Below, in pieces: positions 25,265-64,000 of a stretch of 64,000 nt of DNA; positions within the stretch are counted from its first letter, which is position 1; every line of letters starts with the position of its first letter. A program made the translations under genes and the position numbers. The notes below the pieces were generated by a model, which saw only the letters and a list, made by a program, of their open reading frames with translations, did no database searches and was not told the origin of the DNA. Source of the DNA: Asterochloris sp. CNOR1 (Eukaryota; Chlorophyta; Trebouxiophyceae; Trebouxiales; Trebouxiaceae); assembly GCA_963969365.1 (NCBI GenBank), contig OZ017764.1, positions 1-64,000 on the forward strand. The letters are read 5' to 3'.

Positions 25265-26555
25265 AACTTTTAATAGAAAAGATGACGCCAACCCGATTCA
25301 AATACAAGATTATAGGAAAAAACCTTTCCTACAGTTTAGAAATAGAGACCCTTTTAACGTTTTAAGATCTGTCGAACAACGCACTATTTAAACTCAACAG
25401 GTTATTACAGAGTTTAGAAAAGAAGTTAAAGACACACTTGAAAGGATAGAAGAGAAGGTTACTCCCAATGAAAGAGTGTTTAGAAAGGGCCTACCATTAA
25501 GGGACAAGAGACGTTGCCACTAATACCATTTGTTTCCAGTTAATGAACCAGCCCAGACGTAAAGGAATGAGAATGGTCGAGTACTCCGTCTTTCTTGCCA
25601 TAGGCACTGCTATTACACTTTTAGGACTCACCGGGCTTAGAATTAATGATATAAGAACTTTCAATAAAGAACAATTCCTACACCTTTTAGAAAAAGGAGA
25701 GATTCAAATGTATCCAAGTAAGCAAAACAAGGTTTGTACAATCTTGCTTCTGCAAGCAACCCTTTAAATGAACTTAAAATGGAAGGTATGAATGTTTTCT
25801 ATAAAAGAGAAACTCTTGCAGGTGGTCCTTCACTACCTTGTCCTTGCTTTGCGACCGAAGGTATAGCAACAAGTGAATTGTGGTTTGCTTATTGTAAGCC
25901 AAGCAACACGTACCACAATTCACTTGTTGCTATACCTTCGGTCGCAAAGCAAGGACGCAATAGCTGGATTACCTTTATAAATAATAAACTAAAAGACGTA
26001 CCTTGTGCATTCTTTGGTACGCTTATTGCGTCCGAAGGATCTGTGCAAACTTGGGTTAGAAGGGCGGAAGAAGTACGTAGCGCAGCACAGGACGCAACTT
26101 GTTGCTGATCTTGCTTTGCTGTGCAAACTTCGGTTAGAAGGGCGCAAGAAGGTAGAAGTGACGGTGACCGTGACCGTGACCCTTCGCACGGTCACGGTCA
26201 CGGTCACCAATAAGCGTAGCAAGACGCAAAGCACAAGTTGAATATAAGCTGTCATTCCTTTAGAATAAACTTTATTACAAGCTTGTTAAAGTTTGCACCT
26301 ATTAATCAAGTAAGTGGGCATAATAGGACATAAAGATGTCAAAAGCAGTATGGCTTACAACAGATCGAGTTTAGACCAAATAAAAGGTAGAGATTTAATG
26401 GATAGAGGTATCTTTAACGTTCAAGATGAAGAAAGGATAAAACAAGAAGGTGAGGAATAGATAAAACAAAGAACAATAAAAGAGATAAAACAAGAACTTG
26501 GAGTTGGAGATCCTGTGGACCCGGCATTGAGGGATAGTAATAGCGGTACAAATTA
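25265..26555 (+). pseudogene. degraded second copy of the tyrosine recombinase
   Basis: It is a diverged copy of the recombinase at 18389-19330, recognisable from the ERIEEKVTPNERVFRKG region (about 25440) through YSVFLAIGTAITLLG and RINDIRTF, and again from SCHSFRINFITSLLKFAP (about 26250). Two repeat blocks replace short stretches of the original: about 25835-25962 (a hairpin with 45-bp arms) and about 25996-26245 (containing a GTGACC hairpin). Frameshifts occur near 25510, 25767 and in the GH motif near 26320. Its upstream part (25265-25390) is not matched in the other copy, which suggests that copy lost its own N-terminus. Confidence 0.85.
25840..25956. repeat. 45-bp-arm hairpin inserted in the recombinase pseudogene
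   Basis: The arms 25840-25884 and 25912-25956 are exact reverse complements. The 27-nt loop carries part of the GCTTATTGTAAGCCAAGCAA word. Comparison with the intact copy (CTTCAC followed by CGAACAACTGGATT) shows that the block is an insertion. Confidence 0.9.
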
Positions 26556-30029: not shown

Positions 30030-30661
30030 GGATTGCTTTCCTTATTGCGTCCTTGCTTCGCACTAGCAACAAGTGAATTGTGCTACGTACTTCTTGCGTG
30101 CTTCGCGACCGAAGGTAGCACAGCAAAGCAATAAGCGAAGCAAGGACAAGTCACTTGTACCCTGTGCATACCGACTTTTGCGCTTTTCGCTCGCACAGCA
30201 CGTAAGGCAAGTGGAGCAATTGCTTTGGACAAAAACAAAGACACCCACGTGACCCGTCGTGCTGTGCGAGCGAAAAGCGCAAGAAGGGCGCAAGAAGGGC
30301 GAGGGTGATGCAGAGCAAAAAGCAAGGACCAACTGCTTGCATTGCTAGGCACCTGCTACGGGTCACTTGCTTTGCGACCGAAGAGAGTAAAGCTTTACTC
30401 TCTTCGGTCGCAAAGCAATCCCATCCTACGGACTTGGTGACCGTGACCGTGCGAAGGGTCACGTGCAGAGCAAAACAAACAAAAAGTGTTTTAATCGTTC
30501 TTGTTTTTAAGATTTTGTTTCTAACCCCTTTTTTTAATAAGTTACTTTTTTAGATTTATCACTTTTTGCTTTGCTTATTGCTTTGCTGTGCTACCTTCGG
30601 TCGCGAAGCACGCAAGAAGAGAGTATAGCAACAAGGATATTTTGCCTTAAGATTAAAAAAA
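30030..30661. repeat. repeat spacer with 48-bp loopless palindrome
   Basis: No gene is seen. A perfect 48-bp palindrome lies at 30369-30416 (centre AGCT). The half-site is made of the words GCTTTGCGACCGAAGAGAGT. Confidence 0.85.
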
Positions 30662-30734: not shown

Positions 30735-30918
30735 AGAAGCAACACAAGCAAGTCTTGTTTTGCACTTGTAGCCAAAGGCAACACACGTGACCGTGCGAAG
30801 GGTCACAAGGGTGTGTTGCTTCTTGCGTCCTGTGCATAGGGTCAAGATGGGTCACACAACTCTTAAACTGTAAACTGCACCCTTTATTGCGTGACCCTTC
30901 ACACGGGTCACGTAGCAC

Positions 30919-30990: not shown

Positions 30991-32184
30991 ATAACACCCA
31001 CTTAGTTGGAATCATCGTGATGTGGAATAAGAAAAGTATTACTTTGTAATAGCAAAGCTAAACTTGCCATTACAAAGTAATACCACCACTAGCAACAAGG
31101 ATATTTTGCTTTACGTGACCGTGACCGTGCGAAGGGTCACGGTCACGGTCACCAATAAGCGTAGCAATTGCTTTGCTGACTTGCTTTGCACGTAGCACGC
31201 TAAAAGCAAAGAACAGTTGCTACCGGTCACTTGCTTAAAGCTTGTGATAGTACTTGCTTTGCACGTAAAGCTTTCACCATCACGTGATGGTGACCCGTAG
31301 CACAGGGTGCGTTTGTAGGATGCACTCGCTTTGCACGTAAAGCTTTAAGAGCCGTGACTTGCAAAGCAAGTGACCCGTAGCACAAGCTTTTACCATCACC
31401 TACTTGAAACCTTTGACATCAACCAATTTGTTGCTGATCTTGCTTTACTGTGCGAGCCAAGCACGCAAGAAGGTAGAAGTGACCGTGACCGTGACCCTTC
31501 GCACCGTCACGGTCACCAAGTCGCGCAGCAACATTTTTAGTGACTTGTGTGTTTTGAAAAAATTGCGCGTTACGTGATGCTTCGCACGCAATAAGTGCCT
31601 GTGGCAAGTACCAAGAAGGGTGTTTTTGCTTAAAGCAAAGAACACACGTGACCGTGACCGTGACCCTTCGCACGGTCACGGTCACCAAGTGCGTACAATC
31701 ACGCCCGTGCATCCTACAAACGCAATTGCGTCCAAGCAAGTAGTTGCTTTGCACTAGCAACAAGAGAATTTTGCTTGGACGCAATTGTGTGCAAATTCTC
31801 TTGTTGCTATACTACCTTTGGTCGCAAAGCAATAAGTAAAACAAGAACGCAACACGCGCAATTGTGTGCATCCTAATGGTAGGCACAGGACGCAACATGC
31901 GCAATTTTTTCAAAACACGTGCTACGGGTCAAAATTCTCTTATTGCTAGTTACGTGCGAAGCAAGGTCAGCGTAGCAAGTGCAAAGCAATAAAGAGTACC
32001 AAGAAGCGACACTTGACCCGTAGCACGTCCATCCTACGGACGCAAAACAACGGCAGCATGTGTTGCCTTACTACGTGCGAAGCAAGTCGACCCTTCTTGC
32101 TCTGCATCACGTGCGAAGCATTCAGCGTACCACAGGGTACTACCTTGGGTCGCAAAGCACTCAACAAAAACATTTTAATTATTT
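30991..32184. repeat. repeat mosaic upstream of cob
   Basis: No gene is seen. It has a 15-bp inverted pair (31036-31050 and 31069-31083) of non-repeat sequence, and GTGACC hairpins near 31115-31152, 31480-31516 and 31645-31685. In the first of these the loop reads GTGCGAAG. In the last two it is in the opposite orientation. Confidence 0.8.
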
Positions 32185-34688: not shown

Positions 34689-35784
34689 GAATTAATTTGC
34701 CTTTCCTAAAAAAAAACACTTGACCGTGACCGTGCGAAGGGTCACGGTCACGTGCTAGGTGCAAAGCAATAAAAGGGTGTGACCCTTCTTGCTACGGGTC
34801 ACCAAGTCACGTAGCAATGCTTCTGCGTAGCAAAAACGCAATTTATTTCTTTGCGACCCAAGGTAGTAGCCACAAATTGCTTTTTGCTACGGGTCACCCT
34901 TACCCTTTGCTTTGCATAAGGGTAAGCACTAGCAACAAGTTGCTTGCGTGTACCAACAAGTTGTTTGTGCGAAGGGTCACGCAAGCAACTTGTTGCTAGT
35001 GCGAGACTTACACCCTTCTTGCGTGCTTCGCTCGCACAGCACAGCACAGGGTTCCAATGCGGTACGTGTTGCGTCCGTAAGATGCACGCAAGTGGTAATA
35101 AAACTTACTTTGTACAAACAGGCAATTGTTGACTTGGTGACCGTGCATCCTTTGCTCTGCTTATTGCGTCCTTGCTTTGCACTAGCAACAAGTTGCTCGT
35201 GCAAACTTGGGTTAGAAGGGCGGAAGAAGTACGTAGCGCAGCACAGGACGGGTCACCGTCACTTCTACCTTCTTCCGCCCTTCTAACCCAAGTTTGCACA
35301 GCAAAGCAAGATCAGCAACTGTAGGTAAAAAAGAAAGAAAGAGGGTTTTGCGTTTGTAGGATGCACAAGCAACTTGTTTTGCTAGGTGACCCGTGACCGT
35401 GCGAAGGGTCACGCAGGTCAGCGTAACAACATATTGCGTGTTTGCTAAAAAAAAAACACGGGATTGTAGACTTACCTTCGGTCAGCATAGGGTGCAACAC
35501 ATGGTGAGCTTTACTACCTTCTTGCCTATGGCACAGCAAAGCAATCCCTAGCAACAAGTTGCTTTCCCTACATCTGTGCTGTGCGACCGAAGGTATAGCA
35601 ACAAGTTGCTTCACCATCACACCCTTGTGACCCTTCGCACGGTCACGTGTGTTGCCTTTGGCTACAACAAGTTTTGTTTCACACAAAACTCTTGTGCTAC
35701 CTACGGTCCAACTACCGGTTAACCCGGCACTACCTTGGGTCGCAAAGCATTTAGCAAACACAAAAAGATTTCAAGTTAGATAAA
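34689..35784. repeat. repeat mosaic upstream of nad9
   Basis: No gene is seen. A GTGACC hairpin lies near 34723-34753, and repeat words continue through to the nad9 leader. Confidence 0.75.
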
Positions 35785-37225: not shown

Positions 37226-39363
37226 GTGCGACGTGAAAACCAAACAGTGAAATGTGGATGGAAAGCCACAGGATGTAACCTCCATCCTAGTCCAACTCAA
37301 CATGCGTCTTTAGCAATAAAGGGGTGTGAAGCTTGAGTATTTTTTCACACCCTCTAGTCCTTGCATTTGGCTTTCTTGTTTTTTACCTACTTTACGTGGA
37401 ACCCTTCTTGCTACGGGTCACGTGCGAATTCTCTTGTTGCTATACTACCTTGTCCTTGCTTTGCTTATTGCTTCGCTGTGCTACCTTCGGTCGCGAAGCA
37501 CGCAAGAAGAGAGTATAGCAACAAGAGAATTGTGGTTTGCTTATTGTAAGGGAAGCAACACTACCTGCGGTCAGCACTTGCTTCGCATGTGCGAAGCAAG
37601 GACGCAATAAGGGTAGCAAAATATCCTTGTTGACCGTGACCGTGCGAAGGGTCACGGTCACCGTCACGTAAACCTTGAAGTAGGGCGAGAGTTTAAGAGA
37701 AAGCAGGGTAAGATAAGAAAATGTTTACTGTTTCAATCGTTTGTTTGAAAAAGTAACAATTGCAAGACTAAGGGTACAATTTAAAAGGGCTTAGATAAAA
37801 ACCTGCTTTTTACCATGCATCTATGAACAACGAGAGTGAACAATTGTTTAGGCTGCGTATTTGCTTATGTTCTTTGCGTGCTTCGCTTATTGTAAGCCAA
37901 GCAACACTACCTGCGGTCAGCACAGCACTACGAACAAAGCAAGAGCTATACCTTCTTCCGCCCTTCGCGACTTGGCGACCCAATTCTCTTGTTGCTAGTA
38001 GGATGCACGGTCACGTAGCACAGCACCAGCGTTGTTGTTGCCTAAAGTTTTCGCGTGCATCCTGACCGTGCGAAGGGTCACAGGACGGGTCACGTAGCAT
38101 CCTTTGCTACTTGCGTGCTTTGCTCTTGGTATTCTTTATTGCATTGCACTTGCTACGCTGACCTTGCTTCGCACGTAACTAGCAACAAGTTCCTTGCAGG
38201 TAGGAGGTTTTGAAAAATGGAGAGGATGCTGTTACGTTCCCATACAGCATCGCAGGTTATATTACCTCCATCGCAGTATAGATTGGTTCTAAGGAATGCA
38301 TGTACTAGTTCACTGTTTGGGACACGGTAAACCCTTATGGCTCCGTCGAGAAAAAGTATGTTTTCAATAGAAAGGTTGTGTTGCGTGACCGTGCACCCTA
38401 CTAGCAACAAGAGAATTGGGTCACGGGTCACCTGTTTGCTACTTGCCATAGGGACTTACTGCTTTGCTGTGCTACTACTACCTTCTTGCGTGCTTCGCTC
38501 GCACTAGCAACAAGTTGCTTGTGCGAAGCAAGGACGCAATAAGCAAAGCAATAAGCGTACCACGCAAGAAAGTAGTAGTACAAAGAATTCTTGTAAAGCA
38601 ACAGTACCACATCTTTTTCTATTTTTCCTGGAGACATGGCGGCAACGCCATGCACCGCTATAAGGGCAAAGGACAGCTCAAAAAGCAAAAGCCTTCCAGT
38701 AACAGGAGGGATAAGGCCTTTTGGTCTAGGTTTAAAAACCGCTTACTTGAGCATGGGTAGTTTGTTATCAATTCAATTCACAAAGAGTGACCCGTCCGTA
38801 GGATGCACTACTACCTTCGGTCGACCCTTCTCGTGCGAAGGGTCACTAGCAACAAGAGAATTCACCAATAAAACAAAGCAAGAAGCAAGTCTCTTGTTGG
38901 TGAAAAAAAAGGGATTGCTTGTGCTACCTACGGTCAGCAATGCAATCCCTTTTTTTGCGTATTTTTCCCCTAATATAAGTAGCACAAGCTTTGCTTGTGC
39001 TACTACCTTCTTGCGTGCTACGCTCGCACTACGTGACCGTGACCGTGACCGTGCGAAGGGTCACGGTCACGGTCACGTAGTCGCGAAGCATTCAGCACAA
39101 CTCATAGAAAAATACGCAACACTTGTTTCTCTTTTATAGGAACACAAGGCCAAACAAGCCGTTTCTACACAAACAGGGCTTGTGTTTTTCTCGCCTTAAA
39201 GGGTGATGGTACGCGACTTGGTGACCCGTAGCAAGAAGGGTCACGTAAAGCAAGGAAAGCACTTTTTTATTAAGATAAGACAAACTGCTTGAGCCGTATG
39301 CAAGGAAACTTGCATGTACGGTTCTAAAGGGGGGAACGCTTGGAAAAGCTTACCTATCCTAAC
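37226..39363 (+). mobile_element. group II intron in trnP
   Basis: The intron begins GTGCGAC, the group II 5' consensus. It contains a textbook domain V at 39291-39324 (GAGCCGTATG stem, GGAAAC-type loop, TGTACGGTTC) and ends with a domain VI-like stem and AC. No maturase ORF survives in its 2138 bases. Unique blocks with intron-like structure (37680-37830, 38196-38370, 38620-38770) alternate with repeat mosaic, including one copy of the 190-bp composite duplication (37422-37611) and GTGACC hairpins near 37634-37666 and 39032-39077. Splicing presumably needs trans-acting factors. Confidence 0.88.
37422..37611. repeat. 190-bp composite duplication, copy A
   Basis: It is nearly identical over 190 bases to 46875-47064. 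It contains GAATTCTCTTGTTGCTATAC, the CGACCGAAGG word and a CTACCTGCGGTCAGCAC word. Related shorter blocks lie near 8218-8362 and 26833-26950. Confidence 0.85.
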
Positions 39364-40505: not shown

Positions 40506-41543
40506 ATGGTTTAAGCAACTACTACGTGCAAAGCAACTTGTTGGTAGTGCATAGCAAAATATCCTTGTTGACCCGTCCTGTGCTGCGCTACTACCTTCGG
40601 TCGCAAAGCAATAAGCAGAGCAAAGGATGCACGGTCGACCGAAGTACGTAGCACAGCAATTGCTTGTGGTACAAAGCAACTACGTGACCCAATTCTCTTG
40701 TTGCTAGTAGGATGCACAGCAAGTAAGTACCAGGTGTTGCGTCCGTAGGATGAACACAAAGCCTTATCAGCTTTTTGCCTTCTTCTGTTTGCTTGTGTTT
40801 TTTTTAGCAAACGGAAGGGCAGGGACCCTTACGCTTATTGTGTCCGAAGGATCTGTGCTGACCGCAGGTAGTGTTGCTTGGCTTACAATAAGCAAAGGGC
40901 GGAAGAAGTACGTAAAGCAAGAAGAATAAATATAATCCCTAATTCTGTGCCTTGCTTTGCACTTGTACCCTGTGCATAGGGTCAGGCAACACTTGTACCC
41001 TGTGCATAGGGTCAGGCAACACTTGCTTTGCACTTGTACCCTGTTCTACGCGTGCAGAGCAAAGGCAACACTTGCTTTGCACTTGTAGCCAAAGGCAACA
41101 CACGTGACCCGTACCACTTGGTGACCGTGACCGTGACCGTGCGAAGGGTCACGGTCACGTGTGATGGTGACCCTTGGCACAGGGTGCGCCCTTGCTTTGC
41201 ATAAGCAACTTGTTGCTAGGGATTGCACGTAAAGCTTTCACCATATGTTGCGTCCGAAGGATCTCTGCTTATTGCTTGGCTTACAATAAGCCAAGCAATA
41301 AGCCAAGCAAAATATCCTTGTTGACCGTGACCGTGCGAAGGGTCACGGTCACGGTCACGGTCACGTAGCAAGAATCATGCAATAGCAACAAGAGAATTGT
41401 GCATCCTGACCGTGCGAAGGGTCACAGGACGCAAGTGTTTTCATTTACTTTGCACCCTGTGACCCTTCGCACGGTCACGCATCACTAGCAACAAGTTGGT
41501 TAAGCAACAATAAGGTTGTTTCCTTATCAAGAGTTTGAGATTT
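40506..41543. repeat. repeat mosaic between atp6 and nad6
   Basis: No gene is seen. It includes tandem CTTGTACCCTGTGCATAGGG words near 40965-41040 and GTGACC hairpins near 41120-41160 and 41325-41365. Confidence 0.75.
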
Positions 41544-42995: not shown

Positions 42996-44145
42996 GCCTT
43001 GTGCGAAGCAAGAACTATGCCAACTTTTTTTTTGAAAATATAAAATAATTGGCAAGCAAAAGCAACTTGTTGCTATACGTGCGAAGCAAGTCGCGAAGCA
43101 ACTACTTGCGCCCTTCTAACCGAAGGTAGCACAGCAATTGCTAGTATTCTTGTTCAAGCAACTTGTTGCTAGTGTTGCTTCTTGCTACGGGTCACAATCC
43201 CTTTGCGACCAAAGGTAGAAAACCCTTCTTGCTACGGGTCACCAAGTGTTGCGTCCGTAGGATCACCAACGACAAGCAACAAGAAGAAAAAAAGAAATTG
43301 TGAAATAATAAAAAAACAAGATAAAGGGTGATGGTGAAAGGTTGTGCTACGGATCACAAACATTACGTGACCGTGACCGTGCGAAGGGTCACGGTCAACA
43401 AGGATATTTTGCTCTGCTTATTGCTTGGCTGTGCTACCTTCGGTTAGAAGGGCGCAAGAAGTACGTATAGCAAGAAGAGAATTCGCACGCAATTGCTTTG
43501 AACACACGTGACCGGTCCGTAGGATGCACTACGTGACCCGTCCGTAGGATGCACTACCTTGGGTCGCGAAGCATTCAGCGTACCAATACTTGCATTTTTC
43601 TTGATGGTGAAGCAACTTGTTGCTATAGGTGCAAAGCAATAAGCACAGCACCCGTCTTGCTACGCATAATTCACTTGTTGCTAGGGATTGCTTTGCACGC
43701 AAAGCTTTAAGCAACCGTATGGCAACAACTGCGTGCCTATTCAAAGGTTGTTGCTAAAAAAAACACAAGTGTTGCGTCCTGTGCTGCGCATCAGGATACA
43801 CACAAAAGTGTTCAAAAGGTTGTCCTTAGCGAGTTGCAAGCAACACCAACGAGTTGCTTAGGCTTCACGTGAGAAGAACGGCACCCAAGGGTACGGACTT
43901 GCTAACAGATGCACGTGATGGTGAAAGGTTGTGGTACGGGTCACAACCTTTAAGCAACGCCTGCTTGTGCGTAAGGGTGTGACCGTGACCGTGCGAAGGG
44001 TCATGGTCAACAAGGATATTTTGCTCCACTTGCACCCTATGCATAGGGTACAAACGGATGCACGTGCAAAACATTCGCGTACCAATGTTTGTGACCCGTA
44101 CCACAACCTTTCACCATCACAAAAGAGGACTCTCAAAATAGATTT
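42996..44145. repeat. repeat mosaic upstream of rps10
   Basis: No gene is seen. Repeat words, a GTGACC hairpin near 43365-43398, and an imperfect one near 43980-44010 where GGTCATGG replaces GGTCACGG. Confidence 0.7.
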
Positions 44146-44520: not shown

Positions 44521-45537
44521 CCTTGTTTTTGTTGAAACTCGTCCTTGCGTCCTTGCTTCGCACATGCGAAGCAAGTGCTGACCGCAGGTAGTGTTGCTTG
44601 GCTTACAATAAGCGAAGGGCGGAAGAAGGTAGTCTTGCTTTTTACTACCGACCACAACCCTTGTGCTGCGCTGAATGCTTCGCTGTGCTGACCGCAGGTA
44701 GTGTTGCTTGGCTTACAATAAGCGTACCACGCAAGAAGGTAGTGCATCCTACTAGCAACAAGAGAATTGGGTCGACTTGCTTCGCACGTAGTAAAGCAAT
44801 TGTGACCCAGAGCAAGAAGCAACACTTGCTTGTAAATCAGAACACTTGCTTGTGCTACGTGACCCTTCGCACCAAGTCAAGCAAGTAGGTAGCACTTGGT
44901 AGTGTTGTGCTACCTTCTTGCGTGGTACGCTTATTGTAAGCCAAGCAACACTACCTGCGGTCAGCACAGCAAAGGGCGGAATTGCTTCGCACGGGCAAGA
45001 GTGATGCAGAGCAAAAAGCAATTTAAAGCAAAGAACAAAAACACTTTTGTGTGCAAAGCAAGGACAAGTGCACGGTTGCTGTTAACATCGTTGTTACTTG
45101 CCATAGGCACAACGCAATTTCTACGGAGTTTCAACAAGACGCGTCAATCTTCGTGACGGTACGCACAAGCTCGTTGTTACACTTGTAGCCTGTGCTACGC
45201 TACTACCTTCTTGCGTGGTACGCGACTTGTAAGCGAAGCAACACGTAGCAGAGCAAAGGTAACACTTCCTCCTGTTCTGAAAAGATTGCGTGATGCAAAG
45301 CAATTAAAACCTTTGCTCGCACCACGTGACCGTGACCGTGCGAAGGGTCACGGTCACGTAGTCGCGAAGCATTCAGCACAAACTTGTGTTTTCTTTTAGC
45401 AAACACTTGGTGACCCGTAGCAAGAAGGGTCTTCTACTACTACGTGCGAAGCAATAAGCAAAGTAATAAGCAAAGCAATAAGCAAAGCAATTGTAAGCGA
45501 AGCAACACCAGCAACAAGTTGCTTGCGTTACACTCTC
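44521..45537. repeat. repeat mosaic between rps10 and tatC
   Basis: No gene is seen. CGCAGGTAGTGTTGCTTGG words lie at about 44585 and 44693, and the reverse complement near 44935. A GTGACC hairpin lies near 45326-45358. Confidence 0.75.
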
Positions 45538-46245: not shown

Positions 46246-47607
46246 AAAAAATTATTGAGTTTTGTTATTGTTGCGCTGAATGCTTCGCTTATTGCTTCGC
46301 TTATTGCTTTGCACGTAGTAGTGCGAATTCTCTTGTTGCTATACCTTCGGTCGCATAGCAAAATATCCTTGTTGACCGTGACCGTGACCCTTCGCACGGT
46401 CACGGTCACGTAAAGCGTTCTACGCTGCAATTCACTTGTTGCTAGTGATGGTGACCCGTAGCACAGGGTACAAAGGGATTGCGTGCATCCTTTGCTCTGC
46501 TTATTGCTTTGCGACCGAAGGTAGTAGCGCAGCACAGGACGGGTCACTTGTAGCCTGTGCTACGCTGAATGCTTCGCACGTGATGCAGAGCAAGAAGGGT
46601 CGACTTGCTTCGCACGTAGTAAGGCAACACAACCTTTAAGCAATAAAGCGTACCAAACGAAAGAAGTGTTGCTTTAAGCAATACAAGTGATGGTACAATT
46701 CTCTTGTTGCTAGTGACTCTTCGCACCAATGAATTGCTTTTTGCTCTTTGCGCATGCGAACCAATTCCGCCCTTCTAACCGAAGGTAGCACGACCTTGCT
46801 TCGCACTTGCTCTGCATCACTAGCAACAAGTGAATTGAAGGTAACAATTCTCTTGTTGGTAGGGATTGTACCCTGTGCGAATTCTCTTGTTGCTATACTA
46901 CCTTGTCCTTGCTTTGCTTATTGCTTCGCTGTGCTACCTTCGGTCGCGAAGCACGCAAGAAGAGAGTATAGCAACAAGTGAATTGTGGTTTGCTTATTGT
47001 AAGGGAAGCAACACTACCTGCGGTCAGCACTTGCTTCGCATGTGCGAAGCAAGGACGCAATAAGCAAAGGCAACACTTGTGAATTCTCTTGTTGCTAGTG
47101 CATAGGGTGCGTCCTTGCTTTGCATGGATGGGATTGCGCCCATCCTACGGACGCAACTTGTTGCTATACTCTCTTCTTGCGTGCTTCGCGACCGAAGGTA
47201 GCACAGCGAAGCAATAAGCAAAGCAAAAGCAACAAGTTGATGCAGAGCACGGTCGACTTGCTTCGCACGTAGTAAGGCAACACAACCTTTAAGCAAGACA
47301 TGCAAAGCAACCACTTTTAAGTCAAGGGTGGCAAATAAGGAAAGCGTTGGTTGCATTTGTATTTCTTGTAGGAGAAAAAAACACACACAACTTGTTGCGT
47401 CTCCTACTTGCGTGCTTCGCTGGCACGACCGCTTGCTACGGGTGCAAAGGGATTGCTTTGCACGTAAAGCGTAGCAAAGTATGGGTAGCAATTGCTCCAT
47501 TGCTTGTGCTGACCGCAGGTAGTGTTGCTTCGCATGCAATAAAAGCAAGTAGGTAGCACAACAATGGATCTTAAGAAAACGGCTTTTTAAAGGTAGGCAA
47601 AAAAGCA
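46246..47607. repeat. repeat mosaic between tatC and trnL
   Basis: No gene is seen. It holds the second copy of the 190-bp duplication (46875-47064), a ~70-bp element copy (about 46792-46855) and a GTGACC hairpin (about 46376-46410). Confidence 0.78.
46875..47064. repeat. 190-bp composite duplication, copy B
   Basis: It matches 37422-37611 almost base for base, with differences such as AACAAGTGAATT here and AACAAGAGAATT there. Such a pair can recombine and could generate subgenomic forms. Confidence 0.85.
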
Positions 47608-48222: not shown

Positions 48223-48671
48223 CAATCTTTTCTTTGGAAATAACACTTGTATTACAACGCTTGTACAGCCTATGTCTGTTCTTTGCTTTTACCGTAGCAA
48301 AGGCAATAGTATAGAGTTTACAGGGTAGAGTTGTAAGCAAAATAATACGCTTCGTCCTTTGTCCAAAGGATGGACGAAAAACGAAAAATAAAGGACGAAA
48401 AATGAAGGGCGCGTAATAAGCAATAACTCGTTTTACAGTAAACTAACTTCTTATTGTGCTACGTGATGATACGGGTGCAAAGGGATTGCGCCCATCCTAC
48501 AGACGCAACTTGTTGCTATACTACCTTCTTCCGCCCTTGTGCTACCTACGGTCAGCAAGCACAGCGAAGCAATAAAAAAAGCAAAATATCCTTGTTGACC
48601 GTGACCGTGCGAAGGGTCACGGTCACCGTCACGTAAAGCTTTAAGCAAGTCAACAAAACAATTTCATGATA
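48223..48671. repeat. spacer, partly unique then repeat mosaic
   Basis: Positions 48223-48460 are largely unique, with tandem GGACGAAAAA words near 48370-48405. The rest is repeat mosaic with a GTGACC hairpin at about 48597-48634. No gene is seen. Confidence 0.65.
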
Positions 48672-50416: not shown

Positions 50417-51213
50417 TGGTACACATCAAGTTGCTTTTATCAATTTAAACAGTTAGTGTTGCTTTGGTACGCACGTGATGGTAGGCACAAGGGTGTGCCA
50501 AGCAATTTAAACACAACCTTGTCCTTCTTGCGCGACTTGGTGCGAATTCTCTTGTTGCTATACGTACTTCTTGCGCCCTTCTAACCGAAGGTAGCACAGC
50601 CAAGCAATAAGCAGAGCAAAATATCCTTGTTGACCGTGACCCTTCGCACGGTCACGGTCACGGTCACGTAAAGCAAAATATCCTTGTTGCTACCTTCTTC
50701 CGCCCTTCGCTTATTGCGTCCTTGCTTCGCACTAGCAACAAGTTGCTTGTGCGAAAAAAGGGCGGAAGAAGTACGTAGCACAGCAATTGCTATTGAAATT
50801 TTGTGCGTACCAAGCACAGCACTACCATAACGTGAGAAATATCATGCAATACCAACAGGATGGTACAATTCTCTTGTTGCTAGTGTTGCTTCGCACCAAA
50901 ATTCTCTTGTTGCTAGTGATGGTAAAAGCTTGCCCTTCCTGACCCTTGGCACAGGATGGGTCACAAGCTTGTTGCTTAAAGGTAGTGACCCTTCTCGTGC
51001 ATCCTTTGCTCTGCTTATTGCTTTGCGACCGAAGGTAGTAGCGCAGCACAGGATGGGTCTTCTATCTTCTTGCGTGCTACGCTTATTGCTTTGCACGTAG
51101 CACAGATCCTTCGGACGCAATTGTAAGCGAAGCAACGCCAGCAACAAGAGAATTCACCAAAACCAAGTGTTTGCTTCCACAAGAAACTTTACAAGTCACA
51201 TAAAACACAACAA
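50417..51213. repeat. repeat mosaic spacer
   Basis: Repeat words only, with an asymmetrically extended GTGACC hairpin near 50634-50668. No gene is seen. Confidence 0.7.
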
Positions 51214-52326
51214 ATGAATAAAATCTCGGGAAAAAAATTAAATCTCTTAAAAACCTTGGAAATCCTAAAATCCAATCAGTTTGTATCCTTTTACCATTTC
51301 AACAACCTGTCCAAAAGAGAATGGGATACAATCAAGCTTCAACTTAGAAAGATTGAAACACAAGATATCCCTTCCAACGAAAGCGAAGGGGGGGACAAAG
51401 AAAAAAAGGCAAGGACGCAAGTATTGCCTTTGCTGACCGCAGGTAGCACGCGCAGCAATTTATTGCTTGAACGTACAGCACTTGTGTTGCCTCGCACCAA
51501 AAGCAATTTGTTGCTAAAGCAAGTGCCTAGCAATAGCAACAAGTTGGTTAAGGGTGTTACAACAAAAAGAAAGTTAAAAGGCGCAGAAGTTGAACTTTTA
51601 GTCTTAAAATCAAAAGCCGTTGTTAAGGCCCTGTATCCGTTTCTCTTTTATTCCCAGAGTTGTCTTGCTTCGCACGGGGTTGAGCAAACAGTTCATACTT
51701 ATCCTCTTGCTTTGCGTGGTACTAGTACTACGTGCGAAGCAAGTCGCGAAGCAATAAGCAAAGCAATAAAGCAAAGGGATCGCTTTGCGACCGAAGGTAG
51801 TGACCCGTTAAGCATAACCGTTGCTACGCGACTTGGTGACCGTGACCGTGACCCTTCGCACGGTCACCGTCACGGTCACACCCTTACGCACAAGCAATCC
51901 CTTTTAAATGTAAGCGATTCGCTGTTACCGGAAAAAAGCGCGTGCTACCTGCGGTCAGCAAATAACCAATTAGGGTTCACTTTAAACCCTGTGCCTGCGG
52001 CAAGAATAAACTCGCTAATAAACGCTTTTTATCTTATAGAGGGGCCTACCCTTCTAGTAGGAGCTTCTACGATAGAAGGGTTTAAAGAATCTGCCAGGCA
52101 ACTAGAAAAGGAAAAAAGTTTGGTCTTTGTAGGTGGTGTTCTTGAAAATCAATTCATTAACCACCTAGATTTAAAAGATTGTTTAAAAACGTCTCTTCCA
52201 ACCTCTGCAAATTTGTTGCAAACTTTGAACTACCCTTTAATGATACCCCCTCTTAATTATTACTCCAATAAGTTGCTTTTCTCGCTCCAAAAAAGGCAAG
52301 AATCGTTGAAAAAGGAGGAACTTTAA
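51214..52326 (+). CDS. rpl10: ribosomal protein L10 with repeat-encoded insertions
   Basis: uL10 anchors the L7/L12 stalk of the large mitoribosomal subunit. The N-terminus LLKTLEILKSNQFVSFYHFN followed by NLSKREWDTIKLQLRK resembles algal and plant mitochondrial L10. Residues 276-318 (EGPTLLVGASTIEGFKESAR and VFVGGVLENQFINHLDL) fit its GPT and GG-ylen segments. The 370-residue length is about twice the norm. Residues ~67-113 and ~150-250 are translated repeat words, including a complete GTGACC hairpin read as DRDRDPSHGHRHGH, and the whole frame is open. The excess must be tolerated as loops or removed. The family call rests on motif resemblance. Confidence 0.72.
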   Translation: MNKISGKKLNLLKTLEILKSNQFVSFYHFNNLSKREWDTIKLQLRKIETQDIPSNESEGGDKEKKARTQVLPLLTAGSTRSNLLLERTALVLPRTKSNLLLKQVPSNSNKLVKGVTTKRKLKGAEVELLVLKSKAVVKALYPFLFYSQSCLASHGVEQTVHTYPLALRGTSTTCEASREAISKAIKQRDRFATEGSDPLSITVATRLGDRDRDPSHGHRHGHTLTHKQSLLNVSDSLLPEKSACYLRSANNQLGFTLNPVPAARINSLINAFYLIEGPTLLVGASTIEGFKESARQLEKEKSLVFVGGVLENQFINHLDLKDCLKTSLPTSANLLQTLNYPLMIPPLNYYSNKLLFSLQKRQESLKKEEL

Positions 52327-53118: not shown

Positions 53119-55436
53119 TTGTGGTCGGAGGCAGATTAGAATCAGTAAAGGTAAATTCCTTTCACATTGGCACATAATGTGTAAATCACCAGCTCTACTC
53201 ATTTTGCGAAAGCAATAGGGGGTTGTAACATGCTGGGAAGATGTTGTGGTAAAATAGTACTTGCTTTGCATGTAAAGGATGCTACGCACGTGACCGTGAC
53301 CGTGACCCTTCGCACGGTCACGGTCACGTAGTGCATCCTACTAGCAACAAGTTGATGCAGAGCACGGTCGACTTGCTTCGCACGTAGTAGTCGTTGCTTA
53401 AAGCTTGTGGTACGCTTTATTGCTTTGCACTTGCTCTTTGCCTGTGGCACGACCTTGCTTCGCACTTGCTCTGCATCACTAGCAACAAGTGAATTTGCAT
53501 AAGCAAATCTAATCTAAGTTTGTATTTTTTTGCGATAACACATCTTCGTGAAAAGTAGGTATGGTGAAAGCGTAATTGTTTGAAATCTGAATGCAAATCG
53601 AGGTTTGCGTGCCTCCCCTAAGAGTTAGGGTCTTAATTGTGTTTTCTTTAGCTTATCAGAAGAAAACAAGTGTTCAACATTAAGAGGTGCCCTTTAATTA
53701 AGGGTTCAAGCAGCAACAGGAACACCTAACCCTTTTTTTCCTAAGGAGATAAAACAGGTAAATGCCTTGCCTTTGGTACGCACATCTTTGTGCCTACCAA
53801 AATTCTCTTGTTGCTAGGAATGTATTTAAAGCTTGTTGCAAGTGTTGCTTAAAGCTTGTGCTTACCATCACTAGCAACAAGAGAATTGTCTCTATCTCAG
53901 GAAATGGATTCTAATATAACCCGGCGGGCTCACTAAAGCGAGAAATAGTATCTTTAAGCAGTTTTCATGTAAAAAGCACGTGTTGCTCGGCACACAAAAG
54001 CTTGCTCCCTGTTGTTGCTTGGCTTATTGTAAGCCAAGCAACACGTAGTGCTGCCCTTGCTTGTGCTGTGCTGACCGCAGGTAGTGTTGCTTGGCTTACA
54101 ATAAGCGAAGGGCGCAATTGCTTCGCACGCGCAAGTAGGTAGCACAAGCAGGCAAGAAGCAACACTTGTTCGAAAACAACTTACTTATTGCTATGTGAGG
54201 AGAAGAATCGGGAATCACATGATTTTGAAAGGTAATCTCTTTCAAGCGTAACTCCTTAATTTTGTTGTTTTTATCGTGTTCCTGTTCTTTATCAATCTTT
54301 TTAGAGAAGTTAGGAGGGATAAAAACGCACAGCGAGAGCACATACAACAAAGAAAAGAATATATGCGTCGTGTTCTTTGCTTAAACAACACAACCCTTAA
54401 GCAATTGCTGGTAGTGCTGTGCTACCTTCGGTTAGAAGGGCGGAAGAAGGGCGGAAAGAACACATGTAGAGCAACGGATGCCTTGCACCCTTAAGCACGT
54501 GCGTTCCTAGTGGTGTGCTGTGCTTGGTAGGCACAAGGGCGGAATTGCTTCGCACGCGCAAGAAGCACTTTTGTTTTACACACAAAAGTGTTTTTGTTCT
54601 TTGCTTTAAATTGCTTTTTGCTCTGCATTACCCTTGCCCGTGCGAAGCAATTCCGCCCTTCGCTGTGCTGACCGCAGGTAGTGTTGCTTGGCTTACAATA
54701 AGCACAGCACTACCAACTGCTACCTACTTGCTTTTATTGCTTCGCGACTTTTGCGTGCTTCGCTCGCACAGCACGTAGTAGCACAAGCAAGTGTTCTGAT
54801 TTACAAGCAACTTGTTGCTAGTGTGCGCAGCACAAGGGTTGTGGTCCGTAGCAAGAAGCAAGACTCTCTTCTTGCGTGGTACGCTTATTGTAAGCCAAGC
54901 AACACTACCTGCGGTCAGCACAGCAAAGCAATTCATTGGTGACCGTGCGAAGGGTCACGTGCATACATTTTTTTTGTTTATAAGGGGTTTGCTGCCAAGG
55001 ATTCTAGGATAAGAAGGGTACATTTTTTGCAATTCAAAATGAAACAGTTGTAAGTAAAAGCAACATCCTTGGATCCGTAGGAAGGATTGAAGGCACAACT
55101 TTTTGTAATAGGCCGCAAAGCAAACTCACGATCATACAAGAATAGCCTTTTTGTTGAAACAACAAACTCGTCCTTTGCTACGCTTTATTGCTTCGCGACC
55201 AAAGAGAATAAAGCAACGCTTGTTGCTCTACTACTCTCTTCTTGCGTGCTTCGCTTATTGCTTTGCACGTAGCACAGATCGTGCGAAGCAAGGACGCAAT
55301 AGGCAAAGTAATAAAGAATCGTAATCTTTCTTCTTATCTAGAGAGCCGTATGCATTGAAAGGTGCCTGTACGGTTCGGGAAGAGGAGCTTTAATAAGATA
55401 AGAGTTGTATCTTACATAGAACCCTCCTACTTTCAT
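53119..55436 (+). mobile_element. group II intron in trnI(GAU)
   Basis: The intron lies between tRNA positions 38 and 39. Domain V is clear at 55343-55376 (GAGCCGTATG stem, GAAA-type loop, TGTACGGTTC), followed by a domain VI stem and a terminal AT. The start TTGTGGTCGG resembles the start of the land-plant chloroplast trnI(GAU) intron, which is at the same site as I recall it. No maturase ORF survives. Unique structural blocks (53500-53760, 53900-53950, 54170-54360, 54975-55100) alternate with repeat mosaic, including a GTGACC hairpin (about 53291-53330) and a ~70-bp element (about 53451-53495). Confidence 0.87.
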
Positions 55437-56140: not shown

Positions 56141-58069
56141 ATGGGACAAAAAATTAACCCTATCTCTTTAAGGTTGCAAAAGACCAATAGAAGATATGAC
56201 TCCTCGTGGTACAGTAATTACCATTACGGTGAACTGTTTCTCTTTGATCTAAAGGTTAGAGATTATTTAGAACGAATCTTGAAACAGCTCAACTATCCAG
56301 AGGGCCGTGCTTTAATTAGTCATTTCTCCAAGGGTTCTAAAATAAATCTCTTTGCTTTTAATCCCACTTCCTCCCGCCAACAAAAATTGGGCGCTTTTGG
56401 TTTGAAAGGTGGTGTGCGACTTGGTGCGAAGGGTCACACCCTTACGCACAAGCAAGAACGCCAGCGAAAACTATCGCCTGTCCTTGCTAAAAGCTTTGAA
56501 CACAGGAACGAGTTGAAAAGGCCGTTAAAAGCTTTGAGCAGCAAGAGCAAAGCACTTTCAATCGATCAAGAAGTCTTGTTAGTAAATCAAGTGACCCTTC
56601 GCACGGTCACGTGTTCTGAAAAAAAAAACAGTGACCGTGACCCTTCGCACGGTCACTTGCTAGGCACAAGCTTTAAGCAAAACGCTAACAAGACTGGCAA
56701 CAAATGGAATCCTTTTTTACCATACCTTGCGTTGTCTTGGTACGCGTGCGAAGCCAGAATCCCTTGGCTCGGGATTCTGGCTTCGCACGCGAAGCAGGAC
56801 AAGTTTTCAATCTTCGATGAGAAAACTCATGGTGATCTTCTTCTACGTGCAAAGCAAGTCGCAAAGCAAGATGCATTGCTTGTGCCTAGCAAAGCACGTG
56901 GAGCCAAATTGAATGATTTGGGAAGAAAAACTTTTTTCTCTGTTAATGATTCCTTGTTTTTAAAACCTTATCTTTCGTGCGTAGCAAAGCAACAGGCACA
57001 TAACACGGGTGACCCGTCAAGCACAAGCTTTAAGCAAGTGTTCAATGCGAGCAACTTGTTGCTATACTACGTGCGAAGCAATAAGCAAAGCAATAAGCAA
57101 AGCAAGACGAGCAAAGAAATTCCTTTTTGCTACGCATCAGGTACCAAGTGTGTTCCTTCTGACTGGCAACACAACGGTTCACACTTGGTACCTTTTTTTG
57201 CTTTAAAGGATACTTTGAACCCTTCTTACTTACTCAAAACAAAGAGATTGAGAGACTCGTGTTTTGCTCTGCACATGCAACAAGAGAATTGTGCAAGCCT
57301 AACACAATGCTTTGCGACCGAAGGTAGTGTTGCTTCGCACACCCGTACGCACAAGCAACAAGTGGTTTCAAAAACACTCTCTCTTTGGTACCAAAGAGCC
57401 CAAGGTTCAACCCACCCTATTTTAGTATCCCTTGGTGCAGATAAGAAAACAATCCCTTTCTTGACTAAAGAAACTACCTTCGCGACCGAAAAGAGTAAAG
57501 CGGTTGCCAAAAGTAACCCTTACGTGACCGTGCGAAGGGTGACCAATAAGCAAAGCAAAACGTCCGAGCGAAGGGCGGAAAACAGATTGCTCGTACCACT
57601 AGCAACAAGTTGCTTCCCGTTAAGCACAAGCTTTAAGCAAAAGCAACAATCATTTTCTTGCCATAGGCACGAAAACTCTCTTTATAGATGTCACGTAGAA
57701 GGCGTGTTGGACCAACAGACAGGAAGCTCAGTGAAACTGGTACCTTTTCAAGTGTCTACAGAAAAGCAAAGTGCTTTGTTCTTGGCTCAAGAAGTGGTTT
57801 ACTTTCTGGAGAAAAGAGTTTCTTTTCGAAAGATAAAAGACCAAATCTTAAAGGAATTGAAAAACAGTAAAATCATTAAGGGAGTACGGATTACCTGTTC
57901 AGGGCGTGTGGGGGGTAAATCTAAGAAAGCACAAAAAGCTAAAACAGAAACGGTAAAACAAGGTCAAACCTCCTTGGGTGTTTTTTCCTCGAAAATTGAT
58001 TTTGCACAAAAGAGTGCTTTAACCAGTTTTGGCCTTATTGGGGTTAAGGTTTGGATTTGTTTTTACTAA
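56141..58069 (+). CDS. rps3: ribosomal protein S3 with a very large repeat-encoded middle
   Basis: uS3 forms part of the mRNA entry site of the small subunit. The N-terminus MGQKINPISLRLQKTNRRYD followed by SSWYSNYHYGELF is typical. The C-terminal domain (about residues 555-642) with IIKGVRITCSGRVGGKSKKA and SALTSFGLIGVKVWICFY is equally clear. Between them about 450 residues contain repeat words in frame: GTGACC hairpins read as VTLRTVTC and SDRDPSHGH, and ATTC-rich and AGCAACAAG words. A 20-bp-arm palindrome lies at 56744-56790. Plant mitochondrial S3 also has a long middle, so some extra length is normal. The frame is open for 642 codons without a stop. Confidence 0.93.
   Translation: MGQKINPISLRLQKTNRRYDSSWYSNYHYGELFLFDLKVRDYLERILKQLNYPEGRALISHFSKGSKINLFAFNPTSSRQQKLGAFGLKGGVRLGAKGHTLTHKQERQRKLSPVLAKSFEHRNELKRPLKALSSKSKALSIDQEVLLVNQVTLRTVTCSEKKNSDRDPSHGHLLGTSFKQNANKTGNKWNPFLPYLALSWYACEARIPWLGILASHAKQDKFSIFDEKTHGDLLLRAKQVAKQDALLVPSKARGAKLNDLGRKTFFSVNDSLFLKPYLSCVAKQQAHNTGDPSSTSFKQVFNASNLLLYYVRSNKQSNKQSKTSKEIPFCYASGTKCVPSDWQHNGSHLVPFFALKDTLNPSYLLKTKRLRDSCFALHMQQENCASLTQCFATEGSVASHTRTHKQQVVSKTLSLWYQRAQGSTHPILVSLGADKKTIPFLTKETTFATEKSKAVAKSNPYVTVRRVTNKQSKTSERRAENRLLVPLATSCFPLSTSFKQKQQSFSCHRHENSLYRCHVEGVLDQQTGSSVKLVPFQVSTEKQSALFLAQEVVYFLEKRVSFRKIKDQILKELKNSKIIKGVRITCSGRVGGKSKKAQKAKTETVKQGQTSLGVFSSKIDFAQKSALTSFGLIGVKVWICFY
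56744..56790. repeat. 20-bp-arm perfect hairpin inside rps3
   Basis: The arms 56744-56763 and 56771-56790 are exact reverse complements around the 7-nt loop TTGGCTC. Inner parts of the arms (CCAGAATCCC) are not common repeat words. It is translated in frame within rps3. Confidence 0.93.
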
Positions 58070-59230
58070 TTGCATTCCATTTGTAGCCTGTGCGAATTCT
58101 CTTGTTGCTTGTGTTGCTTGGCTTACAATAAGCAATAAGCAAAGGCAAATGGAGCAAGGACGTACTTTTTGGGCAAATTACAATTCACTTGTTGCTAGTT
58201 ACGTGCAAAGCAATAAAGGGTACCAAGAAGCAACACGTGACCCAATTCTCTTGTTGCTAGTAGGATGCACGGTCACGCAATTGCTAGTGCTGCGCTGTGC
58301 TACTACCTTCGGTCGACCGTGACCGTGATGCTTCGCACGGTCACGGTCACCAATAAGCGTAGCAGGCAAGAAAAGCGCAATTGTGACCCAGAGCAAGAAG
58401 CAACACGCGCAAGAAAAAAGCAAAAAGCACAAGTAATGGCTTAAGCAACTTGTTGCTGATCTTGCTTTGCTGTGCGAGCGAAGCACGCAAAAAGGTAGAA
58501 GACCCTTCGCACCAAGTGTTCTGATTTACGAGCAGTAGTTAAAGCTTTACGTGACCGTGCTCTGCATCAACTTGTTACTAGTAGGATGCACGCAATCCCT
58601 AGCAACAAGTGAATTGTGCGTAGCAAGACGGGTGCTGTGCTTATTGCTTTGCGACCGAAGGTAGTATAGCAACAAGTTGCTTTACCATCACTAGCATTCG
58701 TGCAAAGCAATTCATTGGTTGCCCTTGTGCAAATTACTTGCGTGGTACGCTCGCACAAGCAAGGGCAGCACTTGCTTTGCTCTGCACGCAAAGAACAAAA
58801 ACACTTGGAAGATAGGAACGGGTCTGCTTTTGCGGCCTTGACACTTGTGTCCTTGCTTGTGTTTTTTTTACCAAACGGAAGCACGTGGTACGGGTCAAGT
58901 AAACCTTCTCCCTACTAGCAACAAGAGAATTTACCAATTTCTAGTGTTGCTTCGCATGCAACCACTACGTGACCGTGACCGTGCGAAGGGTCACGGTCAA
59001 CAAGGATATTTTGCTCTGCTTATTGCTTCGCTGTGCTACCTTCGGTTAGAAGGGCGCAAGAAGTACGTATAGCAACAAGAGAATTCGCACTACTCTCTTC
59101 TTGCGTGGTACGCTTATTGTAAGCCAAGCAACACTACCTGCGGTCAGCACAGCGAAGCAAGTCGCGAAGCAATCCCTTTGCACCCGTAGCAACAAGTTGC
59201 TCGTCAAAAACTAAACCACTTCAAGTTTTC
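58070..59230. repeat. repeat mosaic upstream of nad2
   Basis: No gene is seen. GTGACC hairpins lie near 58315-58350 (with an A-for-C change in one half, GTGATGC) and 58971-59000. Confidence 0.75.
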
Positions 59231-62474: not shown

Positions 62475-64000
62475 ATGAAAAGAAAACCATTAAACAAATC
62501 ACGTTTCACTTACCTTAAACAGAACACACCACTTAATGTGGTTCCCGAAAAAAAACTAAAAAAAGCCGATTTGGCTGGTTTGATCGAGAACAGGGGAAAA
62601 TCACGCTTTAGAACAAAGAAATTGAGAGAGAGAGTAGAAACTTTAATAAGGTCAGACCTTGTGTTTAAGAACAAAACAAACGCTAGCAACAAAAGAATTG
62701 TACCATCACCCCTTACTTTGGTACGCACAACGTTCGTTCCACAGGCAAGAAACACTCTCAAAGCAAAATATCCTTTCCATCTCAATATGAACGCAAAACG
62801 TACCGTGCACTTGCTTGTGGTACTACCTTCGGTCGACCGTGACCGTGACCGTGCGAAGGGTCACGGTCACGGTCACGTAGTCAAGCAAGTAGGTAGCACA
62901 AGCGCAGCAAGTGTTGGTGTTGGTGTTGGTGTTGGTGTTGCTTCGCACCAACACCAACACCAACACCAACAAGCTTCTTGCTCTGGGTCTTCTACTACTA
63001 CGTGCGAAGCAATAAGCAAAGCAATAAGCGAAGCAATAAGCAAAGCACAAAGCAATTGCGTGCCTAGCAAAGCACACGAACAAAAGAAAATGGTAGAAAA
63101 AGATGAGATTGGTACCAAATACATTGTCAAAAGAACAGTATTAGGTTCAACAAGGATGTTTTCTAATACAAGGTTTAAAGTTCATTCCCAGGATTTAAAA
63201 CAACTTATTGAGGGAAGAGGGAGAAAGGTTTCCCCATATAAAGCTTGTCTTTTAGAGCGTAAAAAGTTGAGTTTGATTTACGGGAATTTAGGGTGGAGAG
63301 AGCTAAGAAAGTGTGTACTACAGAGTAAACACAAAAAAGGAGTAGCTTCCCCAAAAAGTGGGAATAAGAAAACAAGACCACAAACAAGCTCTCTTCCAGA
63401 GAATTTGATTACACTGTTAGAAAGCAGGCTGGACGTGGTTCTTTATCGTTGTCGTTTTTTCCCTTCTTTTTCTAGTTGCAAACAGGCAATTAACCATGGC
63501 AAGATTTTTGTAAACCACAGACAGGTAAGAATTGCGGGTCATCTTTTAAAGGGCGGAGATCTCATACAAGTAAACCCCCAATCTAAACAATCCTTACTTG
63601 TGGTACTACCTTCGGTCGACCGTGACCGTGATGCTTCGCACGGTCACGCGAGTAAATCAGAACACAAGCAATTCCAAAGGAATGCTACTAAAACATTTGT
63701 TCCTTGTCCTGGCTCTGCACGCAAAGAACAGGAACACGTGGTTTCTAAGAAAGCAAATTATCTGCTTGCTCTTGAAAATGAAAAGCAAAAAACTCTTTTG
63801 TATTTTCAAAACAAGATAAAATCGAGACCCTTTTCCCCTTTTCTTCCGTCTGCTTTGTTGACAAGATTTGACCCGTTACACCACTTTCCTTGGAATACAA
63901 AGCAAAAACCCAACCAGTTAAACAATACTACGTGCAAAGCAATAAGCAAAGCAATTGCTTTGCACAACAAACAAGATTATGGTTCTTGTTTTTTGCGCCC
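62475..64000 (+). CDS. rps4: ribosomal protein S4, partial at the window end, with repeat-encoded insertions
   Basis: uS4 is a primary small-subunit assembly protein. The frame runs from ATG 62475 to the window edge without a stop (508 codons). Its N-terminus MKRKPLNKSRFTYLK, the LRERVETLIRSDLVFKNK segment, YKACLLERKKLSLIYGNLGW and the S4 RNA-binding domain at residues ~309-366 (ENLITLLESRLDVVLYR to GHLLKGGDLIQV) support the call. Residues ~115-195 are translated repeats: a GTGACC hairpin (RDRDRAKGHGHGH), then a foldback microsatellite read as VGVGVGVGV and QHQHQHQ. Another repeat block follows the S4 domain. The true C-terminus lies beyond 64000. Confidence 0.92.
   Translation, partial: MKRKPLNKSRFTYLKQNTPLNVVPEKKLKKADLAGLIENRGKSRFRTKKLRERVETLIRSDLVFKNKTNASNKRIVPSPLTLVRTTFVPQARNTLKAKYPFHLNMNAKRTVHLLVVLPSVDRDRDRAKGHGHGHVVKQVGSTSAASVGVGVGVGVASHQHQHQHQQASCSGSSTTTCEAISKAISEAISKAQSNCVPSKAHEQKKMVEKDEIGTKYIVKRTVLGSTRMFSNTRFKVHSQDLKQLIEGRGRKVSPYKACLLERKKLSLIYGNLGWRELRKCVLQSKHKKGVASPKSGNKKTRPQTSSLPENLITLLESRLDVVLYRCRFFPSFSSCKQAINHGKIFVNHRQVRIAGHLLKGGDLIQVNPQSKQSLLVVLPSVDRDRDASHGHASKSEHKQFQRNATKTFVPCPGSARKEQEHVVSKKANYLLALENEKQKTLLYFQNKIKSRPFSPFLPSALLTRFDPLHHFPWNTKQKPNQLNNTTCKAISKAIALHNKQDYGSCFLR
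62835..62874. repeat. GTGACC hairpin with 8-nt loop inside rps4
   Basis: The arms 62835-62850 and 62859-62874 are exact reverse complements around the loop GTGCGAAG. It is the same element seen in dozens of spacers, here translated in frame. Confidence 0.95.
62913..62970. repeat. palindromic GTTGGT microsatellite hairpin inside rps4
   Basis: The arms 62913-62937 and 62946-62970 are exact reverse complements built from GTTGGT hexamers around the 8-nt loop TTGCTTCG. They are translated as VGVG and HQHQ runs. Confidence 0.95.

Follow-up and report, generated by a model that had tools for sequence, protein, structure and literature searches.

Palindromic repeats occur in the mitochondria of many lineages, and the route by which they spread is not settled. 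The closest described system to the one treated here is the LIMP family in the mitochondrial DNA of the trebouxiophyte Lobosphaera incisa, which has the form (AACCA)m[AATGAAA or TTTCATT](TGGTT)n and is present in 19 copies and 79 remnants (Tourasse et al. 2015, PMC4524435). In the sections of that paper drawn on here the loop is reported in both orientations, the arms are unequal and the flanks shared, some of them reverse-complemented; rare read pairs linked the flanks of one LIMP to those of another, gaps in RNA-seq at long stems are a further feature, and a role as RNA processing site or replication origin was proposed. The organelle palindromes of Volvox carteri are likewise dispersed hairpins in both orientations, which their authors, in the part of the paper used here, took as suggestive of transposition (PMC2670323); their loop is often TAAA or TTTA, and the repeats make up a small share of the nuclear DNA. 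At the level of single events, the portion of PMC8794818 considered here describes interstrand template switching that inverts the loop of an intact hairpin in rRNA genes.

The window, that is the whole stretch analysed here, comprises bases 1-64000 of the mitochondrial contig (C20; 110,056 bases) of a green alga that literature leads suggest is trebouxiophyte-like; C20 is one of 21 contigs in an assembly of 56.4 Mb. The contig carries cox1, cob, atp6, nad2, nad6, nad9-type, rps3, rps19, rpl16 and other mitochondrial genes together with rRNAs, tRNAs and group I and II introns; tatC (window 45538-46245) is on the minus strand, the other genes named in C20 on the plus strand. Another contig (C21; 215,390 bases) is taken as the plastid because both Photo_RC genes found in the assembly lie on it. 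Exact cores of the form GTGACC-octamer-GGTCAC number 34 in the window, where 100 dinucleotide shuffles give an expectation of 0.00, and wherever GTGACC-N8-GGTCAC is found there the eight bases are exactly GTGCGAAG (20 copies) or its reverse complement CTTCGCAC (14 copies). The plus-strand copies lie at 2198..2217, 7861..7892, 15108..15127, 15604..15623, 23234..23253, 30443..30462, 30787..30806, 31121..31140, 34723..34753, 35393..35412 (site 35399), 37636..37655 (site 37642), 39045..39064 (site 39051), 41133..41152 (site 41139), 41327..41346 (with a long right arm), 43373..43392, 45332..45351, 48601..48620 (site 48607), 54939..54958, 58975..58994 and 62835..62874, the last of which reads GACCGTGACCGTGACC-GTGCGAAG-GGTCACGGTCACGGTC and has a perfect stem of 16 bp. 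The minus-strand copies, where the plus strand reads CTTCGCAC, lie at 3028..3047, 14888..14907, 20902..20944, 21225..21244, 26176..26195, 31645..31685, 35627..35646 (site 35633), 41459..41478, 46376..46410, 50636..50655, 51836..51879, 53302..53321, 56591..56610 (site 56597) and 56637..56656 (site 56643). The initial annotation had spoken of about thirty copies with stems of one to four GTGACC units and a loop in two mutually reverse-complement forms, and the count, the two forms and the arms of one to four exact units all agree with it, as do the hairpins it gave as examples (those starting at 7861, 34723, 62835, 20902, 31645 and 46376), which all read as described.

Extraction and tabulation of orientation, units and flanks, which had been proposed as a check, gave 63 exact cores in the whole contig (39 with GTGCGAAG, 24 with CTTCGCAC) and 88 hairpins in which each side has one unit or more, with at most one mismatch per unit. 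Perfect hairpins with a stem of 10 or more and a loop of 3-30 number 250 in C20, whereas two Markov shuffles gave 7 each, nested and overlapping ones being scored separately, and for four of the examples, equally divided between the loop forms, the hairpin fold is predicted both as DNA and as RNA. The octamer itself occurs 258 times in C20 and 144 times in the window (2.08 expected), so that the majority lack a stem in the window and in the contig as a whole; it recurs within other repeated words of the C20 spacers. Copies are found in an rRNA insert and, as had been claimed, in coding regions: three of the 34 window cores (14888..14907 on the minus, 15108..15127 and 15604..15623 on the plus strand) lie inside an LSU rRNA insert of 1,313 bases (14741-16053), one in the reading frame 51214-52326 and two in the rps3 frame, and the remaining 28 are in spacers or unassigned sequence.

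The likeness to LIMP is close. Both have an arm of tandem units and a reverse-complement arm, an invariant short loop in both orientations, arms that are often unequal, short shared flanks and many stemless remnants, and LIMP also resides in mitochondrial DNA, that of a trebouxiophyte. The unit is however GTGACC (six bases) and not AACCA (five), the loop is GTGCGAAG (eight bases) and not AATGAAA (seven), the arms have 1-4 exact units against 2-13, there are 63 exact cores against 19 copies, and 3/34 window cores are in reading frames and 3/34 in the LSU insert, whereas LIMPs, in the sections of the paper referred to, are always intergenic. The GTGACC family is thus not LIMP itself, from which it differs in both unit and loop sequence. 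The initial annotation had called the family unknown, which is right for the sequence family but not for its kind, already known from LIMP; new are the GTGACC family and the flank-anchored evidence for inversion. In-place inversion at orthologous sites is not among the LIMP features described in those sections of PMC4524435, and the GTGACC/GTGCGAAG family was not found among the matches listed in a search of the open-licence literature that was not by motif letters. The Volvox repeats differ in that they are non-repetitive palindromes, according to the same part of PMC4524435, and in that they are found in plastid and mitochondrion (PMC2670323, likewise in part). The rRNA-gene switches share the reverse-complemented loop between intact arms, loops of 7-8 bases included, but as far as the portion of PMC8794818 considered goes they are rare single events and do not form a dispersed repeat family.

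The loop is much more constant than the arms. Eight-base loops between exact units in C20 are exact in 63 of 64 cases, and across the 37 imperfect cores 2 mismatches affect the loop (8 positions) and 49 the arms (12 positions), 20 of these 49 at the outermost 5' base, where a CATCC subfamily differs. This count was limited to cores with at most three mismatches because at four it is swamped by copies in the opposite orientation, which differ at 4 loop positions. Among the 63 exact cores, copies with more exact units in one arm tend to have more in the other (rho 0.40, p = 0.001). A strand bias of the loop had support neither in C20 (39 vs 24, p = 0.077) nor in the window (20 vs 14, p = 0.39), a bias in the strand of the longer arm was not supported (23/34, p = 0.058), and growth of the palindrome past equal arms into the flanks was not above control (p = 0.14). 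At 62918..62971 a 23-bp stem of another six-base unit, GTTGGT, encloses the same octamer, so the loop is not tied to one stem unit, a situation also seen between LIMP and HyLIMP; the latter, in the sections of PMC4524435 used here, is a related palindrome of another unit with one member carrying the LIMP loop, though its unit has ten bases and another sequence.

The family is confined to the mitochondrion. Outside C20 the exact core is found at six nuclear places only, and it is absent from C21. A search of viral contigs gave 0 exact cores, and the 10 pattern matches for nad2 relatives in viral contigs gave 0 confirmed. In 257 Gb of bacterial and archaeal genome contigs there was one match, in Ruegeria, which is about the level of chance since 0.5 was estimated for a search of that size.

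Both loop orientations on one strand had been read as a sign of inversion, but the mixture alone is uninformative. A hairpin with loop GTGCGAAG becomes, when reverse-complemented, the same stem with loop CTTCGCAC, and both forms are therefore expected of any element that can lie on either strand; as a proof of inversion the mixture was rejected for this reason, and inversion must be shown against the flanks. Every copy was thus read with its octamer as GTGCGAAG and flank was compared with flank, a match on both sides requiring a score of 9, the 99.9% quantile (9.0) of 4000 single-flank reversed controls. Among all 88 copies 35 pairs matched in parallel and 3 inverted. The CATCC subfamily (15 of the 88) is all of one polarity with 0 inverted, and among the 73 copies outside it there are 12 parallel pairs and 2 inverted ones. 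One of these is strong: 48607 and C20:79746 share both flanks (scores 15.0 and 12.5) and have opposite loops. The second, 7873/84157, is at the threshold only. The cores at 21225 and 26176 have both flanks in common. Among the 63 exact copies, similar half-flanks share their side of the loop in 101 cases and have opposite sides in 65, where reversed controls give about 2 for either class. The word GCAAAATATCCTTGTTGACC stands on the GTG side at 37642, 41333 and 48607 and on the AAG side at 43379, 46390, 50642 and others; site 37642 has a 20-base flank that is identical in oppositely oriented copies, and the hairpin at 46376 has the flank of 37636/48601 on the opposite side of its loop.

The comparison with sister species at orthologous sites, which had also been proposed, was made with proteins, the codons of the relatives being those expected in the frame fixed by the hairpin family. 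All 18 homologues of the reading frame 51214-52326 were aligned. At the in-frame hairpin (51836..51879, minus strand) the hairpin-coded peptide is present in P0010 and P0011 and absent in the other 16, which show 47-87% identity in the alignment; one of these, P0017, has a related DPSH stretch upstream. P0011 has the orientation of the window, and P0010, which outside the hairpin differs from the window frame by one substitution in 370 residues, has the loop inverted. The peptide reads GDRDRD-PS-HGHRHGH in the window and GDRDRD-RAKH-HGHRHGH in P0010, which corresponds to CCT TCG CAC in the window against what would be CGT GCG AAG CAT CAC in P0010, and hence to a predicted GTGCGAAG-CATCAC where the window reads CTTCGCAC. 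P0010 thereby differs additionally by one unit and CATCAC. An assembly error around a short palindrome in the sources of the relatives is conceivable, but it fits P0010 poorly since a simple flip would not add six bases.

The rps3 reading frame (56141-58069, 642 residues) contains repeat words that read in frame, and 12 of its 24 homologues were aligned. At 56637..56656 the window has NS-DRDPSHGH-LLG and P0031 and P0033 have NS-V-LLG, a near-clean insertion at the protein level, and the hairpin is absent from the covering relatives. At 56591 the window reads VTLRTVT, and P0031 and P0033 read VRRVT, two residues shorter, which would fit GTGCGAAG-GGTCAC; ordinary substitutions could give the same, as P0030 has VRTIT and others SSTIT and SRTIT. 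An imperfect copy on the plus strand (57524..57543) is GTGACC-GTGCGAAG-GGTGAC in the window and reads alike in P0028, and P0029 has VTLRT there, which would fit GTGACC-CTTCGCAC without the right unit. Judged from the residues, the differences at 57524 and 56591 would suggest a half hairpin on one side and, on the other, a more complete one whose octamer is reversed. At 56424-56437 the window frame itself has a half hairpin, the octamer followed by GGTCAC, read as GAKGH, and at the corresponding place P0031 reads ASHTLT, in which the octamer may be present in reverse orientation. Compared with the window, the last part of P0028 is near identical and the earlier part diverged, as if it were a mosaic.

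Nuclear copies of mitochondrial DNA give a further set of flank-anchored sites. Eight comparisons were made, and orientation was kept in six (56597, 56643, 65775, 48607, 35399 and 97404, with one flank only for 65775 and 48607), inverted with good flanks in one (L001) and weakly inverted in one (L002). The copy on C11, 94% identical over 1,190 columns, keeps the orientation of both 56597 and 56643 and has the inner unit CATCAC at 56643 where the mitochondrion has GGTCAC. A second piece on C11 (L004) has one right-arm unit against two at 65775, which supports the unit-wise variation of the stem that had been claimed. The copy on C12 keeps the orientation of 48607, that on C14 is unchanged at 35399, and one on C15, found by a shorter pattern, fits 97404 in the same orientation and has the CATCAC form. 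The inverted case L001, on C2, has its best fit among the compared copies at C20:39051, with matching flanks (scores 25.5 and 13.5), the loop reversed and 2,2 units against 3,3; its top four fits are all inverted. L002, on C5, has two equally good but weak fits, 41139 and 35633, both of them inverted. The inner-unit form GTGATG-CTTCGCAC persists in two nuclear copies (C11, C15) and in four mitochondrial ones (C20 58325, 63628, 78226 and 95980), which suggests that it is an older core, later made perfectly palindromic.

Taken together, the loop is reversed between unchanged flanks at orthologous sites in P0010 (on inferred codons) and in L001, which supports flank-anchored inversion at a few sites; it is rarer than stability. 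Our preferred explanation, to which we give a probability of roughly 0.6, is that this is a LIMP-type family whose core flips occasionally and whose stem gains or loses whole units, either by template switching or by an exchange of strands between the arms. The starting point would be a dispersed octamer GTGCGAAG bordered by inverted arms of GTGACC units, arms that could pair in single-stranded DNA or in an extruded cruciform. The polymerase would then switch template within an arm, or the two arms would exchange strands, so that the core is copied as its reverse complement before copying resumes in the other arm, and the outcome would be an inverted loop between unchanged flanks. Slippage in the repeated units would add or remove whole units, and the same arm-level copying between copies may both spread the core and keep it uniform. 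The switching step, the direction of each change and the route of spreading are what we infer from these comparisons. Copying and flipping through the arms is favoured because the loops are near constant, the arms variable and the empty sites, treated below, within their controls, and no encoded function is needed to explain the family. The initial annotation had suggested a copy-and-flip process; the flank-anchored inversions (P0010, L001 and 48607/79746) agree with it, whereas the hairpin transposition cycle that it also mentioned is so far not supported.

Template switching is the best-fitting known process, and its closest rival is that only ectopic gene conversion or homologous recombination takes place and no copy flips where it stands. 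Because the arms read the same from both sides, a core can be donated between any two copies in either orientation, and the extra unit and CATCAC in P0010 would require a second step after a pure flip, when a single event, copying from another locus such as 95980 or 58325, would explain its orientation, unit and CATCAC together. The half-flanks are unpolarised, as conversion would have it, and the rare read pairs that join flanks of different LIMPs, reported in the sections of PMC4524435 used here, point in the same direction. L001 differs from 39051 in its loop, its unit number and two bases at the junction and carries no other donor-specific marker, which speaks against conversion without being decisive, and on balance we find it rather unlikely, slightly more so than at first, that conversion accounts for everything. 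It is much less probable that whole hairpins transpose in either orientation, as a double-hairpin element or in the manner of a MITE, even if the two orientations, the dispersal and the presence or absence at coding sites between relatives are what such an element would produce, and even if bidirectionality was read in that way by the Volvox authors, in the part of PMC2670323 used here. Inversion at sites where both flanks are shared is not predicted by transposition unless excision is followed by reinsertion. Sites in C20 where the two flanks are joined, with no octamer, GTGCGAAG or CTTCGCAC between 4-8 bases per side, did not exceed the maximum of 300 re-paired controls in any of 15 settings; some settings were slightly over the control mean (58/63 vs 54.95, and 1/63, copy 15610, vs 0.25). 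The near-clean insertion at 56637 relative to P0031 and P0033, at the protein level, is the reason why we raised the odds of transposition, by very little, to a level that is still low.

Two further explanations give the octamer a role of its own. In a loxP site an asymmetric 8-base spacer is flanked by a pair of inverted arms, and the same architecture, with a reading frame of the tyrosine-recombinase type at 18389-19330 (plus strand; Phage_integrase domain PF00589, E 3.6e-12) in the same mitochondrial genome, would make the hairpins candidate sites of that integrase. By eye the frame presumably has the H-x-x-R and Y motifs; the XerA and XerC models score far under their cut-offs, and five of its 8 relatives beyond one 100% match also have an rve domain. 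Nothing was found on tyrosine recombinases in green-algal mtDNA in the open-licence literature. Conservative exchange within the spacer would keep each flank on its side, but 65 of the 166 half-flank matches pair flanks from different sides of the loop, and single-unit copies have arms of only about 6 bases; the loxP-like site was rejected on the flank polarity, and of all the explanations we hold it to be the least credible. The constancy of the loop (63/64) could alternatively be due to selection on an RNA processing site or a replication origin, roles proposed for LIMPs in the sections of PMC4524435 drawn on here. A constrained loop does not agree well with both orientations folding and being able to occur at one site, with 3/34 window cores in reading frames, or with an octamer that is commoner without a stem, and selected function seems to us very improbable.

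Returning to template switching, we could imagine, as a tentative extension, that the palindromes are self-sustaining products of replication, in which a single switch at an octamer bordered by one unit inverts the octamer and creates the missing arm, and further switches turn the core over and alter the length of the arms. If that were so, a family in two orientations might arise and remain uniform without any transposase or recombinase, an idea we regard as less likely than not. The site at 57524 would show such a step, with GTGACC-CTTCGCAC in P0029 against GTGACC-GTGCGAAG-GGTGAC in the window, one base off the prediction; 56591 would show another, with GTGCGAAG-GGTCAC in P0031 and P0033 against GTGACC-CTTCGCAC-GGTCAC in the window, exactly as predicted if the codons are as supposed. 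The mixed loop orientations of LIMP and of the Volvox repeats would then, if this is true, be due to flipping and not to transposition. As a second LIMP-like family, the GTGACC hairpins offer loci at which near-identical relatives carry different loop orientations and numbers of units, and such loci allow replication-based flipping to be tested in reads and strains.

Single GTGACC units also enclose a 28-base loop. It is found on either strand, with 5 exact copies one way and 4 the other, in the window at 3478, 36413, 39568, 49881 and 58237 and in the rest of C20 at 84294, 86004, 86210 and 107123. In those copies that were inspected by eye, flanks held in common stay on their side.
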